IMG/VR virus record: IMGVR_UViG_3300032236_000292
Coordinates: 1-22,440 of that record
Reading direction: 5' to 3' (one strand)
From: a virus
DNA length: 22,440 nt
The position numbers and the translations under genes were made by a program. The notes beneath the pieces are model-generated. The model searched no databases, was not told where the DNA came from, and saw only the letters and a list, made by a program, of their open reading frames with translations. Shown here in pieces: positions 12,377 through 17,849 of the stretch (position 1 is the first letter of the stretch; each line of letters starts with the position of its first letter).

Positions 12377-14008
12377 TTAACTCCTACTCGCCATTGCTTT
12401 AGCTGCTGCGTTACCAAATGCCCAAGGGTCAGCATCAGGTGGAGCAGTGACATTTACATATATGTTTCCAGTGTAGGTACTTCCAGAAGGTGTACCAGGA
12501 GTAACTGCAGAATAGTTTGAAGTCATACCAGCAACATCTGCGTTAGGGTTTTGGTTGTCTGCCAGGCTTCCTACAGCTAGCATCCCTAAACCTGCACCAG
12601 CAACAGCTCCTCCAAGTAAACCTAGTTGTCCATAGTCACTTTTTTTCATATGGCTAATTAAACCACCGCTGTAATATCCACGTCCATGGTTAACTCGAGA
12701 TGTAAGAGCAGAGATTAATCCAAAACCTGCTCCACCACGAATACCACTAAATGTTTCCATCATGGTCAATAAACCTTGACCACCTTTAGCAGCACTGCTG
12801 ATAGCATCTGCTGGAAGACCTAGAATGTTTGCTAACATAGACTGGTCTTTACTTACTCCTTTGGCATTTCCTAAAGAATTAAATGCATTAAACAGTGCAC
12901 TAACACCTTCATTAGCACTCATAAAACCAGCATTAGTAGCTTTTGTCCAAGCTTGAAGCATACCTAGTTCAGCAGTATTTCTGGTTGCTAAGCTTCTAAT
13001 AGATGGAGTGACTCCACCAGTTCCCTGCAAAGCAGCAGACGTACCAGATGTAGATAGACTTTTTCCACCGCTATTAGACATTTGAACAAGTCCAGCCAAA
13101 ACAGATTGACGTAATTGGGCGTCATTTCCAAAGTATTGGTTAAGAATACTATCCAAAGCATTACCAGACATAGCAGATATAGCAATAGATTGTGGGGTAA
13201 CAACACCGCCAGATGATTGCTTTAATAAATTATATAACTGCCCAATGATATCTGGTAGGTCATTCATTTGAGAACCAGTTCCATTACGTACATTGATACC
13301 AATCATACGTAGCATATTTACGCTTCTAGCATTATTAAGACCAGCCATTGCTGTAATACCACCAGAAAGACCAGCACCAGGAATGAGGTTAGATACAAGT
13401 GCGGCTCCACCCATAACGCCACCAAAACCAGTTTTACCTTGAAAGTTATTAAGACCAGGAAGTAGTCCCATGCTAGCGCCCATGTTATATGAGTTTGTAA
13501 CATCCATAGCATTGGTAGGTGTACCCATACCAGCAATAGCACGCTGGTCCGCATATGCTTGTGAAACACTAGTAATTACTTTACCGTTTTGTTGATAACC
13601 ATAGAAACGAAGCCTATTAGAAAAGGCTTCCATATTAACAGCTTCATCAGCAGTTGGTAAAAGACCAAAAGCACCTAGGGCTACTTGAGCAATTTTTTTA
13701 CCTAGCATGGCGCTTAATCCACCACTAGCAGTAACATACCCAGAAGATGCTGGGTCTGACATACCTGGAATATTAGAACCTGTGGTAAGTGCGCTTTGCT
13801 GTGCTGGAAGGTTTGCACCAGCATTAACTATTTGACCAGGTACTCCAGTATTAAATGCTCCGCCTCCACCTTGACCGCCCATAGCTAAACCAGCTACTGT
13901 GCCTAATGAATAATGAAGTGATTTAGCTTCACCAGCCATATGAGTAAGGGCTTTATCGGCACGCTCAAAGTTTTCGGCTACCGATTTAGATACATCATCC
14001 AGTGCCAT
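12377..14008 (-). CDS. Probable tail tape measure protein
   Basis: This 543-aa protein is rich in Gly, Ala, Ser and Met. It has a helical N-terminus (VAENFERADKALTHMAGEAK) and hydrophobic Gly-rich segments, e.g. around residues 457-485. It has no recognisable enzymatic domain. Its place immediately after the chaperone/extension pair and before the baseplate genes is the standard tape-measure position. If it is the ruler, its length suggests a tail of about 80 nm (roughly 1.5 angstrom per residue). AGAAGG lies upstream of the ATG, and the start overlaps the chaperone extension frame by 14 bases. Position is the main evidence. Confidence 0.65.
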   Translation of the reverse strand: MALDDVSKSVAENFERADKALTHMAGEAKSLHYSLGTVAGLAMGGQGGGGAFNTGVPGQIVNAGANLPAQQSALTTGSNIPGMSDPASSGYVTASGGLSAMLGKKIAQVALGAFGLLPTADEAVNMEAFSNRLRFYGYQQNGKVITSVSQAYADQRAIAGMGTPTNAMDVTNSYNMGASMGLLPGLNNFQGKTGFGGVMGGAALVSNLIPGAGLSGGITAMAGLNNARSVNMLRMIGINVRNGTGSQMNDLPDIIGQLYNLLKQSSGGVVTPQSIAISAMSGNALDSILNQYFGNDAQLRQSVLAGLVQMSNSGGKSLSTSGTSAALQGTGGVTPSIRSLATRNTAELGMLQAWTKATNAGFMSANEGVSALFNAFNSLGNAKGVSKDQSMLANILGLPADAISSAAKGGQGLLTMMETFSGIRGGAGFGLISALTSRVNHGRGYYSGGLISHMKKSDYGQLGLLGGAVAGAGLGMLAVGSLADNQNPNADVAGMTSNYSAVTPGTPSGSTYTGNIYVNVTAPPDADPWAFGNAAAKAMASRS

Positions 14009-14150
14009 TTAAGTACCTTCTAGACCTTTCAATCCAATTTAGTCGTTCGCGTAAAGATAGTGAGCGCACATCGCTCATAGACAAATTAAATGTTCGGATT
14101 AGTACTTCGTATTGGTCCATTAAGTATTCGTATTCTTCGTCCTTATAGAC
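13995..14150 (-). CDS. Tail assembly chaperone extension (+1 frameshift product)
   Basis: This open frame begins within the end of the chaperone gene and gives 51 residues: VYKDEEYEYLMDQYEVLIRT, then FNLSMSDVRSLSLRERLNWI and a basic tail. It ends with TGA at 13995, overlapping the tape-measure start. The only internal ATG (14120, giving 41 aa) has no Shine-Dalgarno site. Phages commonly make such C-terminal extensions by frameshifting just before the tape measure. Here it lies in the +1 frame relative to the chaperone. The fusion would have 262 + 51 = 313 residues. Confidence 0.65.
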   Translation of the reverse strand, partial: VYKDEEYEYLMDQYEVLIRTFNLSMSDVRSLSLRERLNWIERSRRYLNGTG

Positions 14151-14937
14151 GAAATAAGGCGGCAAGACTTAGCGGTAGTCCTATTGAATTACCACATGCC
14201 TCACAAGCCTTACTCACCTCCTGAAGGCGAGGACCTGGGTTACGGTTAGCAATCTCTGAGACAAGTTCCTGTCGGTCGCTGATACTAAGAGCAAGAGCAG
14301 TAGCTCTACCCATAGGTGGAGTACCATTTATTGAAGCAATACATCCACCAAGAAGTACTGTAACAGCTTCTGCTGTAGACTTATCTTGAGCGTCAACTAG
14401 CTTCTTTTGGGTAATGCCATTAGGAAGATTTACTACCACGTCTCCAGCTTTAACTGTGACTAGGAAAGACCTGTCTTCCACAGGATTATCCAGTTCTTTA
14501 ACTTTGATATCTTTGTCAATATCAAGTGTCAGTTCTTGTTCTTTAGCACAACTAGGACATATAGTATTGGCAATAATTTCGTTACCAAAAGTAACTTTTC
14601 TTATACCAAGAACTATGGCGTCCCTATCTCCAGATAGTAAATTATCAAGGTCAGTTGAAGTTACCTTATCTCCGCCAAGTTCTACAAGTCCTCTAGATAA
14701 AATTACCTGTAAGAGGTTGTTGCCAGCAGAGGCAAGTGCTTCTTCATCCGCTCCATTTAATTCCCTAACCCTGGCTGTTTTAACCAAGATACCTTCTTTT
14801 GAAATAAACCCACCAGGTAGGTATACCTCATTAGAAATAGGGGCTGTAGTAGTAACCTCTACAGCAGAGTCTCCCATTTTTTCAAACTGGGCTCCGAGTT
14901 GGGTGAGAAGTGATGGGTCAGTAGATACTTCAGTCAT
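14143..14937 (-). CDS. T4 gp26-type tail assembly chaperone with zinc ribbon
   Basis: This 264-aa protein has the T4_baseplate (gp26-like) layout: LPGGFISKEGILVKTARVRE (residues 40-59), then NGADEEAL, and a zinc-binding pair CPSC (127-130) and CEAC (245-248). It lies between tube and tape measure, where tail assembly chaperones are encoded. AAGGAG precedes the ATG. Its end reads TTA TTT CGT CTA TAA; a +1 slip at TTT CGT C enters the extension frame. Family recognition is moderate to good, and the chaperone role comes from position. Confidence 0.75.
   Translation of the reverse strand: MTEVSTDPSLLTQLGAQFEKMGDSAVEVTTTAPISNEVYLPGGFISKEGILVKTARVRELNGADEEALASAGNNLLQVILSRGLVELGGDKVTSTDLDNLLSGDRDAIVLGIRKVTFGNEIIANTICPSCAKEQELTLDIDKDIKVKELDNPVEDRSFLVTVKAGDVVVNLPNGITQKKLVDAQDKSTAEAVTVLLGGCIASINGTPPMGRATALALSISDRQELVSEIANRNPGPRLQEVSKACEACGNSIGLPLSLAALFRL
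14149..14154 (-). promoter_or_regulatory. Likely +1 ribosomal frameshift site (UUU CGU C)
   Basis: Near the chaperone end, in-frame codons are TTT (14154-14152) and CGT (14151-14149), followed by C at 14148. A tRNA-Phe pairs with UUU and, after a +1 slip, with UUC. This sequence matches the shift site known for the influenza PA-X product. It lies two codons before the zero-frame stop and opens the 51-residue extension. Confidence 0.5.
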
Positions 14938-14961: not shown

Positions 14962-15597
14962 TTATAGCATCTTGCCTGGGTTATTGCCTGGGTCCAACGC
15001 AGTACCATCGGACTTAACAAACGCAACAGACATACCTTCGTGTACCAAAGTCATTGTTTCGTAGAACAATTGATTTTCAGCAGCACTCATATCACTGTAT
15101 GAAAGTGCAGTAATCCAAGCATTTCGTAGGATGAATGTCATTCTCTGGTCGTTATTAACCCCATCAGCATTTGGATGGTCCATAAGAGAAATCTTTACAT
15201 TACAACGGAATGAAGAGGGCTTATTAACGTTATCCACGTTAAGTCCTTCACCAGCTGCTGCGGCGTTAAGACCACGCATCCATGTAATAGCCTGGTCGTT
15301 TCCATAAAGAACACCACGGCTGAAAGTAACTGGACTATAAGAAATCATTCCAGGAATCTGATGGACTGTGGTGTTGTAGCCACCCTCACGGTATGCAATA
15401 GGGTTTGTAGTGATAGTCAAACCTTGAACAGCACTGAACCCACCAGTAAATCCACCAGTTGTATTCGTCAAAATTTTATTGTTGAATACAGTTCCACCGC
15501 TTACGGGAGTAAACTCGGCTTTGAACCTAAAGTTGCGTAACGGGTCAGTTAGGAGAGACCCACGCTGGTCAATTGTATTAATGTTATTTGTTGTCAT
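14962..15597 (-). CDS. Tail tube protein, T4 gp19-like
   Basis: This 211-aa protein carries the gp19/tube signature: DPLRNFRFKAEF (18-29), then FSAVQGL near residue 53, YREGGYN, PVTFSRGVLYGN and ITWMRGL. It builds the hexameric inner tube under the sheath. TAAGGAGAT lies just before the sheath gene upstream, while this gene starts at the ATG at 15597 after a short spacer with GGAGATAATA. The gene order sheath then tube is standard. The Asn/Gly-rich C-terminus is unremarkable. Confidence 0.9.
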   Translation of the reverse strand: MTTNNINTIDQRGSLLTDPLRNFRFKAEFTPVSGGTVFNNKILTNTTGGFTGGFSAVQGLTITTNPIAYREGGYNTTVHQIPGMISYSPVTFSRGVLYGNDQAITWMRGLNAAAAGEGLNVDNVNKPSSFRCNVKISLMDHPNADGVNNDQRMTFILRNAWITALSYSDMSAAENQLFYETMTLVHEGMSVAFVKSDGTALDPGNNPGKML

Positions 15598-15611: not shown

Positions 15612-17849
15612 TTAAACCGTTACGGTTACTGTTGTGCCGCTGTCTACTTGACCAATGCGGATGACAATGAATTCAGCTGGCTTTAGAAGTGCTACACCAA
15701 TTTCAACGTGTAGTTCTCCTGCAGATACTGAAGTAGTAGTGTTGATTGTGTTATCGCACTTTACATAGAATGCCTGGTCAGCAGTTGCTCCGTAGAGACC
15801 ACCTGTCCGCCAGAAATCATTCAAGAATGTATTAACCACAGTAGATACTCGTACCCAAAGGTTAGTATCATTAGGCTCAAACACTGCAAACTGAGTGATG
15901 CTCTTAAAGTTTGAAGCCAAGTAGTTAAGTGTTCTACGTACTGGTACATAACGATTTGTGTAATCTGTAGCAAGGGTACGAGCACCCATAATGCAGATTC
16001 CATTTCCTGGAACATATCGGATTACGTTTAAGTTAGCACCGCTGTTGTTATTAATTACATCAAAGTCAGCTGATGAAAGTGAAGCAATAGATACAACATT
16101 AGCAAGGTTAGCGTCCTTAGCACCAGCAGGGGCTTTGAATACTCCGCGAGTACTGTCTGTCTTAACATACGTTCCGACAACTGCACCACCAGGAGGGATT
16201 GTTGCTATTTGACCAGATGAGGTATATGGCTGAGGGATTGTAATGTAAGGGTAGTAAGCCGCACCAAACTTCTGATTTGTGGTAAATCCATTGACTACAG
16301 CAAGGGTGCTTGCTACTGTTGTATTAGGAGCATCAATTACAACAAATGAATCTCCTCTATTAGCAGCATAACTTAGCAAGTTAGTTACATCACTAGAGCT
16401 ATTACCAGCCCAGTTCATAACTAGCGGAGCTGAAGCTGAATCAAAACGACCAACCATAACATCTGTAAGACCTGTAATAGCACTACGTGCGGTAGAGCCT
16501 TCAGTACCAGTAACAGCAGCAGGGCTTGAGGCAATCTGTTGACTACTTGCTGTAACTCCTAAGTCAACTGCTCCAGTTGCTGTAAAGCCACTAGCAGCAA
16601 TACTCCAAACGAAAGACCCTGTTGCAGTAGTATTAGCTGGGTTAGCACTATTAACTAAAGCAGATGACCACGAGCCATTAAATACTGGAAGTCGGTTGTA
16701 GCCTGTATTAGGTGAACCGCCATCAGTTACTGTAATGTAAGCAGAGTTAATCAAGTTAGCAAAGTAACGACTATTTGTTGCGTCCATACTTAACTGTGGC
16801 CAGCGCTCTACAATGTCTGTTTTAAGTGCAGTAGCTGCATCAGACGCGGAAGAAATATATACATTTAGGTCAAAATAATTAGCAGTACTACTTGGAAGAA
16901 TAGTAATCCAAATATTGTTACCCCAAGTACCAGCGCCGTTTGCGGAAATATTTAAAGCATTAGTTGTGCTGTTATTATAACCGCTTACAATACTTCCTGT
17001 TGTAAGAGCTATACCGCTTTGTGTAGTGCCCGTGTAAAAAATAGTAGCGCTTGAAGTACCAGAACCTGATGCCGCAGCTGTAACAATCCATTGATTATTA
17101 AGAGTCTTTAAAGTGTCTGTACCAGTAATACCACTAATAGTTAGCACTTGACCAGGAGCAAAGTTAGCAAAGTCTGTTGCATTACTAGAAGTAAATGTTA
17201 AAGAGTTAGTACCTGTTGACAATGTAATAGAAGAATTAGACCATGTAACAGTGCTTATACCCTGGTCACGAATGGTTAAAGATGCAGCAGATGCAGTAGC
17301 AGCACCGTCACGAAGAACGTATGCCTGTGAACCACCATTATCAAAGAACGATTTAAGAGCATACTTAAGGTCAGTATTTGGAGTTATTGCTAGTGTAGAC
17401 CCTGAAGCAACTGCAACAGTTGGAGAAGCGCTAATAGTAATTGTTCCAGCACCAACTGCAGTAACAAGAGTTCTATCTGCAAATGAACCAGCTGTACCAG
17501 CTACAAAAGATACTACAGAACCAACAGTAATACCAGCAGTAGCTACCGAAATAGAAGTAGCTGATGTACTAATAGAACTTGATGTAGTAACGTAAGTTGG
17601 CTTTACACTACTAAATACATTTGAAGCATTACCAAAAGCAAACTTATTTACAAAGTCTCCCCATCCAGTAACTAGTGTTGGAACACCTACACCCTGGTAA
17701 GCGGTAGAACCAATTGTTGCTGGGGCAGTAGGTCCATGGTCAGAATATCCAACAAAGGCAGCGATAGACTGTGTAGGTTGAGTATTAATAGGCGCGTTTG
17801 CTAGAAGACTCTCTTCAATGTAAACGCCTGGCTTACTGTAGTTAGCCAT
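15612..17849 (-). CDS. Tail sheath protein with two inserted beta modules
   Basis: The 745-aa protein begins MANYSKPGVYIEE and has SIAAFVGYSDHGP and WGDFVNKFAFG, all typical of sheath N-termini. LKYALKSFFDNGGSQAYVLR (161-180) and NISANGAGTWGNNIWI (300-315) continue the fold. The C-terminal domain shows RYVPVRRTLNYLASNFKSIT and ends HVEIGVALLKPAEFIVIRIG. It contracts to drive the tube through the envelope. Residues 82-158 (GITVGS type) and about 212-275 (APGQVLTISG type) are extra modules placed between conserved strands. TTAAGGAGAT before the ATG suggests high expression. Confidence 0.93.
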   Translation of the reverse strand: MANYSKPGVYIEESLLANAPINTQPTQSIAAFVGYSDHGPTAPATIGSTAYQGVGVPTLVTGWGDFVNKFAFGNASNVFSSVKPTYVTTSSSISTSATSISVATAGITVGSVVSFVAGTAGSFADRTLVTAVGAGTITISASPTVAVASGSTLAITPNTDLKYALKSFFDNGGSQAYVLRDGAATASAASLTIRDQGISTVTWSNSSITLSTGTNSLTFTSSNATDFANFAPGQVLTISGITGTDTLKTLNNQWIVTAAASGSGTSSATIFYTGTTQSGIALTTGSIVSGYNNSTTNALNISANGAGTWGNNIWITILPSSTANYFDLNVYISSASDAATALKTDIVERWPQLSMDATNSRYFANLINSAYITVTDGGSPNTGYNRLPVFNGSWSSALVNSANPANTTATGSFVWSIAASGFTATGAVDLGVTASSQQIASSPAAVTGTEGSTARSAITGLTDVMVGRFDSASAPLVMNWAGNSSSDVTNLLSYAANRGDSFVVIDAPNTTVASTLAVVNGFTTNQKFGAAYYPYITIPQPYTSSGQIATIPPGGAVVGTYVKTDSTRGVFKAPAGAKDANLANVVSIASLSSADFDVINNNSGANLNVIRYVPGNGICIMGARTLATDYTNRYVPVRRTLNYLASNFKSITQFAVFEPNDTNLWVRVSTVVNTFLNDFWRTGGLYGATADQAFYVKCDNTINTTTSVSAGELHVEIGVALLKPAEFIVIRIGQVDSGTTVTVTV
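17376..17606 (-). repeat. GI-VGS beta module inserted in the sheath
   Basis: Codons 82-158 encode a segment with SISVATAGITVGSVVSFV, then RTLVTAVGAGTITIS and STLAI. The flanks KFAFG and LKYALKSFFDNGG are normally close together in sheath proteins, so this is an insertion. Confidence 0.7.

Follow-up and report, generated by a model that had tools for sequence, protein, structure and literature searches.

A gp26-type tail assembly chaperone gene with a probable programmed +1 frameshift at a conserved UUU_C site

Tail chaperones made by frameshifting, mostly of the −1 kind, are a textbook example of recoding. The functional model is phage lambda gpG/gpGT, in which a chaperone encoded before the tape measure gains a frameshifted C-terminal domain through a −1 shift; the shifts of P2 and other chaperones are −1 as well, T4 being excepted and the haloarchaeal myovirus HSTV-2 being very likely +1 (PMC5009743). 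For T4-like phages, two papers (PMC10885494, PMC12846349) credit Vladimirov, Gautam & Davidson (2022, Virology 566:9-15) with chaperone genes present as short and long copies and with poly-T −1 signals, and as we read these citations the chaperones are gp26 and gp51. As far as the citing papers relay that work, it has already described both the gp26/gp51-type chaperones and the −1 signal of T4-like phages. For +1 shifts, no general motif is said to exist, and UUU is reported to belong, at the RF2 site, to the second tier of slippery codons (PMC10885494). At the influenza A PA-X site (UCC_UUU_CGU), which has no evident stimulator, a P-site slip on UUU_C is favoured because tRNA-Phe (GAA) pairs better with UUC than with UUU, and UUU_C sites in which the E- and A-site codons are restricted have been predicted to form a class (PMC3498833).

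Here we analyse a window of 22,440 nucleotides, positions 1 to 22,440 of IMG/VR virus record IMGVR_UViG_3300032236_000292, in which comparative data make it highly probable that one gene, ORF1, encodes a tail assembly chaperone with a programmed +1 frameshift giving a short and a long form. The short form (TAC-N; 14143-14937, minus strand) has 264 residues with two CxxC pairs and is gp26-type: it matches PF12322 (T4_baseplate) with E 1.5e-9 and 38.3 bits against a curated cut-off of 24.5, and phrog_150 with E 1.3e-7. The first-pass annotation had recognized this first part correctly, and ORF1 indeed belongs to the gp26/gp51 family of T4-like phages, probably together with its extension. Its view that a gp26-type chaperone is an unusual case does not hold, however, because gp26/gp51-type genes of T4-like phages have already been named tail assembly chaperones in the work cited above, as its citations present it.

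The surroundings of ORF1 are those of a tail assembly chaperone, and this synteny is established at the level of gene order. Its upstream neighbour, on the same strand, encodes the tail tube protein (14962-15597; phrog_4542, E 5.6e-23), preceded by the tail sheath gene (15612-17849, minus; phrog_17610, E 1.3e-46; phrog_23, E 5.6e-40). Directly downstream of ORF1 and its extension lies a 543-aa ORF (12377-14008, minus), for which a profile search returned no match; it is therefore named a probable tape measure by position and synteny only. In SP-15, LIS04 and immuto phages, the gene that follows this pair carries a tape measure annotation. The overlap of the extension with this ORF, noted in the first pass, is real (14 nt, between the stop at 13997-13995 and the ATG at 14008), the tape measure identity being positional. 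In BRock (L085, 3963 onward), the gene at the tape measure position is annotated 'endolysin'.

An AlphaFold2 model of the short form has a pLDDT of 89. Compared with the PDB, it ranks the HK97 tail assembly chaperone 2ob9 first, a weak match (E 0.3; TM-score by query 0.17-0.20); compared with viral predicted structures, it finds T4-like hub assembly proteins with E 1.7e-20. The ORF1 profile, run against the sequences of solved structures, gave no match, and no near-identical DNA was found among isolate phages. Neither the window nor eight related loci contain tRNA genes. WhiB-family genes are present in 12 of the 12 large related contigs searched (G001-G012; the records of L009, L011, L016 and others), and actinobacterial hosts are therefore suggested. 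Taken together, ORF1 probably encodes the chaperone for tail assembly in a contractile-tailed phage whose host is probably an actinobacterium.

ORF1 ends, on the minus strand, with TTA (14157-14155), TTT (14154-14152), CGT (14151-14149), CTA (14148-14146) and TAA (14145-14143). The putative shift site thus covers 14149-14157, with TTA in the E site, TTT in the P site and CGT in the A site; the slip tetranucleotide UUU_C occupies 14154-14151, and the 0-frame stop stands two codons past the slip codon. Skipping one base after TTT would yield a 313-aa fusion with 51 residues beyond F262. The +1-frame extension (TAC-C, gp51/P2-E'-like) spans 13995-14150 on the minus strand, 51 codons and the stop. 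The junction predicted for a +1 shift is LFVYK; a −2 shift would give one residue more. The corresponding predicted peptides of the window are ACEACGNSIGLPLSLAALFVYK (244-265) for the long form and ACEACGNSIGLPLSLAALFR (244-263) for the short form. Among the 19 minus-strand genes of the window (6562 codons), one of 187 TTT codons is followed by CGN, namely that of the shift site. About three such pairs would be expected from the CGN frequency, and the pair is perhaps avoided elsewhere.

Comparison with relatives establishes both the shift site and the +1 frame as conserved sequence features. From 80 + 80 IMG/VR loci we read 91 distinct junctions, and the break falls at the same Phe codon in all 91, with an extension of 44-54 residues that is always in the +1 frame. 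The slip codon is followed by C in 90 of the 91 and by T in the other (L077, where TGA comes directly after); the A-site codon is CGC in 42, CGT in 26, CGA in 16, CAA in 6 and TGA in 1. Since this codon varies, the constant part of the site is UUU_C/U. The codon before TTT is TTG in 82 of the 91, the window having TTA. The claim from the window alone that a +1 slip on TTT opens a 51-codon frame is borne out by these counts, and the conservation that had been put forward as its check extends to cultured Streptomyces phages.

The junctions were clustered at 80% nucleotide identity into 44 representatives, which keep the pattern. TTT is the slip codon in every cluster, compared with 83% of Phe codons elsewhere in ORF1, and the preceding Leu codon is TTG in 37/44, compared with 14% of Leu codons elsewhere in the gene (binomial p 2e-26, with the clusters taken as independent, which is true only roughly). 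The wobble positions of TTT and TTG carry 2.0 and 1.4 bits of information, respectively, against a mean of 0.45 at other upstream wobbles. The A-site codon is CGN in 41/44 clusters, and the 0-frame stop comes exactly one codon past it in 40/44, the remaining clusters having it within four. In the same 44 representatives, no Shine-Dalgarno-like motif was found upstream of the site, and the search for a stimulatory RNA structure gave an alifold energy of zero and a mean single-sequence z of +0.23.

Selection on the extension is evident from the alignments. Third-base degeneracy follows the 0 frame upstream of the site and the +1 frame downstream (Mann-Whitney p 0.0015 and 0.0005). Beyond the site, pairwise pN/pS is 0.305 in the +1 frame, whereas the 0 and −1 frames give 1.3 and 0.96, respectively; within ORF1 it is 0.329. 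Residues invariant in the extension include E16, S33, R37, N39, W40 and R43. Modelled by AlphaFold2 as a chain separate from the short form, the plain +1-frame ORF is predicted to form a three-helix domain (pLDDT 88.8).

A conserved +1 frame could also be translated as a small gene of its own, by reinitiation after the TAA or from an internal start codon. The window gives this reading some footing, with AAGGA (14144-14140) lying across the stop and an ATG in frame at 14120, which qualifies the first-pass statement that the small frame has no ribosome site of its own. In addition, a separate ATG-started small gene is present in phage LR756511 and in contigs L269 and L275, and the deposited records of cyanophages and phiM12 have such genes annotated. 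The substance of that statement nevertheless stands, since the window's AAGGA and ATG are about 19 nt apart and the position of the ATG is a Leu codon in most relatives. Moreover, the first 25 codons of the extension lack ATG in 81 of 91 relatives and lack ATG, GTG and TTG alike in 57, yet they are conserved from the slip codon onward; in 29 of the 91 the whole extension is free of all three. A start codon with a ribosome site for the small frame was sought in the relatives, and within the window clade they do not supply one. Internal starting would also leave the wobble conservation of TTT and of the preceding TTG unexplained, and we regard it as quite improbable. Nor was a long product encoded elsewhere found: the twelve contigs of 60-98 kb (of uncertified completeness) and four complete isolate genomes searched have a single PF12322 gene per record (16/16) and no second gp26/gp51-type gene, therefore no T4-style second long gene, and each of the 12 contigs has one extension.

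The window being a metagenomic contig, in which a one-base change would restore a 313-aa ORF, the split might have arisen from a sequencing or assembly error in one continuous gene. Independent genomes refute this reading, to which we give next to no probability: the identical break recurs in 91 distinct contigs, the same split stands in the finished isolate genomes of BRock, Alone3, GiJojo, pSt2308, SP-15, LIS04 and GXN1, and the 0-frame stops lie at a set distance from the site. A subtler alternative is that the same net frame is reached by transcriptional slippage or by a −2 shift, as −2 and +1 yield the same frame and OAZ1 behaves as −2 in yeast (PMC10885494). Here the T run is just three long, short for transcriptional slippage by established knowledge. 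For a −2 shift, two bases back on UUG UUU the tRNA would face UGU, whereas UUU re-pairs well with UUC at +1, and the conserved base after UUU fits the +1 slip. We hold such routes to be very improbable as well.

For the programmed +1 shift, the account that follows is inferred as to its occurrence, its efficiency, the precise way of slipping and the tasks of the two products. Most ribosomes would terminate at the TAA and release the short form of 264 residues. In a fraction of them, where peptidyl-tRNA-Phe sits on UUU while the A site (CGU) is slow to fill, the tRNA would slip one base forward; the anticodon GAA would then re-pair with UUC, and 51 more codons would be read to give the 313-aa long form, predicted to end in a small helical domain. 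A pause caused by a rare A-site codon is not obvious, because CGU is the commonest arginine codon of the window (69/199). By analogy with lambda gpG/gpGT, coating of the tape measure is the probable role of the short form, while the long form, which would be rarer, probably connects the tape measure to tail tube subunits.

The sites of the window clade fit the UUU_C class derived from PA-X by pattern only, that is, by UUU_C, restricted E- and A-site codons and no stimulator found. The match to PA-X proposed in the first pass therefore holds for the UUU_CGU core, shared along with the proposed UUU_C P-site slip and the lack of an evident stimulator (PMC3498833), but it does not extend to the preceding codon, which is TTA here, TTG in most relatives and UCC in PA-X; PA-X also concerns a eukaryotic ribosome and an unrelated protein.

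As to the protein systems, the T4-like gp26/gp51 chaperones share with the window the PF12322/phrog_150 family and the short/long logic, and differ in how the two forms are encoded: by two separate genes in T4, by a −1 shift at T TTT TTC in the cyanophage type, and by one gene with a probable +1 shift at UUU_C in the window clade. P2 E/E+E' likewise lies between tube and tape measure and has an extension to which that of the window is similar (E', PF06528), although its shift is −1 (according to the record's annotation) and its N part is PF10109, not PF12322. Lambda gpG/gpGT differs in its −1 shift and in an N part unrelated to ORF1 by any test run. HSTV-2, likened here by description only, shares the very likely +1 direction and is an archaeal virus (PMC5009743).

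Kinship of the extension to gp51 and P2 E' is suggested by profile-profile comparison, in matches that are moderate because the extension is short. Alone, the window's extension has no significant match among Pfam and PHROGs profiles. As a clade profile in hhalign, it matches P2 E' with 75% probability (E 2.5e-5, of moderate strength), the cyanophage −1 extensions with 57% and the SP-15 group with 43%; reversed controls reach at most 1.4%. Against T4 gp51 directly it scores 1.2%, which is not significant, whereas the cyanophage extension matches the gp51 C terminus with 77%, so that the window extension may be tied to gp51 through these two cyanophage steps. The remaining pairs of extension groups range from 0.1 to 95%, the strongest being LR756508 with the 121Q/CBB groups (95%). 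PF06528, the family of P2 E' itself, is listed for 21 of 39 extension members, weakly (best E 0.004); phrog_634, which goes with gp51, is absent from the families listed for these members. In T4, gp26 (208 aa) matches PF12322 and ends without an extension, and gp51 (249 aa), which matches PF12322 too, carries the extension within its own reading frame (phrog_150 aligns to position 280 of 282).

Beyond the window clade, the +1 form recurs in cultured phages, and in all it appears to be used by a large group of phages with contractile tails, most of which infect actinobacteria. In the Streptomyces phages and related IMG/VR loci, CTG or CTA stands before TTT C.. and a +1 extension follows; Streptococcus phage GXN1 has TTC TTT CGT C, with the same core as the window. 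A +1 extension is also found in Mel-JY01, the 484-kb phage LR756508 and the L260 group, and in SP-15, LIS04, immuto and Slicko, where the +1 frame was assigned without an exact slip codon; TTT-C with a +1 extension further occurs in a 'Proteobacteria' MAG contig. In the −1 form, all 76 distinct cyanophage-type gp26 genes (L180-L259) end in the canonical heptamer T TTT TTC, after which the extension continues in the −1 frame, and T TTT TTC or T TTT TTT precedes a −1 extension in 121Q, CBB, V2275, Atu_ph07, PA5oct, phiM12, XacN1 and RAS14. No account of a +1 shift in a gp26-type chaperone turned up in the literature searched, outside which most subscription papers lie. Very likely, then, what is new here is the same chaperone with the opposite shift direction, as read from sequence, at a simple UUU_C site with no stimulator found. 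Going further, we lean towards a twofold proposal: that UUG/CUG UUU C-GN, unaided by an RNA structure or a Shine-Dalgarno element, programs bacterial ribosomes to shift +1 across a whole phage lineage, and that one chaperone family has seen the direction reversed at the same Phe codons (−1 at U UUU UUC, +1 at UUU C/U), the two-gene form of T4 being a third solution.

With dozens of naturally occurring variants, the family shows for a single +1 site of a single gene that UUU and then C/U are fixed, UUG before and CG after are favoured, and other bases are free. The same arrangement exists in cultured Streptomyces, Bacillus, Listeria and Streptococcus phages, which makes it open to immediate testing. 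Existing annotation is corrected as well: in the annotated +1 phage genomes examined, the long form is never entered as a fusion, and the extension is either left out or given as a separate gene. In pSt2308 (L083, 3759-4019) and LIS04 (L087, 3666-3897), it lies unannotated in an intergenic gap. In S-RIM8, phiM12 and Atu_ph07 (L172, 2523-2660; L173, 2451-2612; L169, 2391-2513), the downstream gene is annotated from an internal start and labelled 'gp51 / hub assembly catalyst' or hypothetical, and the conserved −1 frame extends back to T TTT TTC/T at the end of gp26.

Other arrangements were also encountered. In Lysobacter MAG contigs L284, L285 and L286, TTT TTT TTG closes the gp26-type gene, and the extension, which lies in the −1 frame, could also start at an overlapping ATG (a −1 shift or a separate gene). 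In L089, L269 and L275, relatives of frameshifting phages, the ATG of the extension gene lies at or just past the gp26-type stop, and this separate-gene form possibly provides a natural series for loss or gain of the shift.
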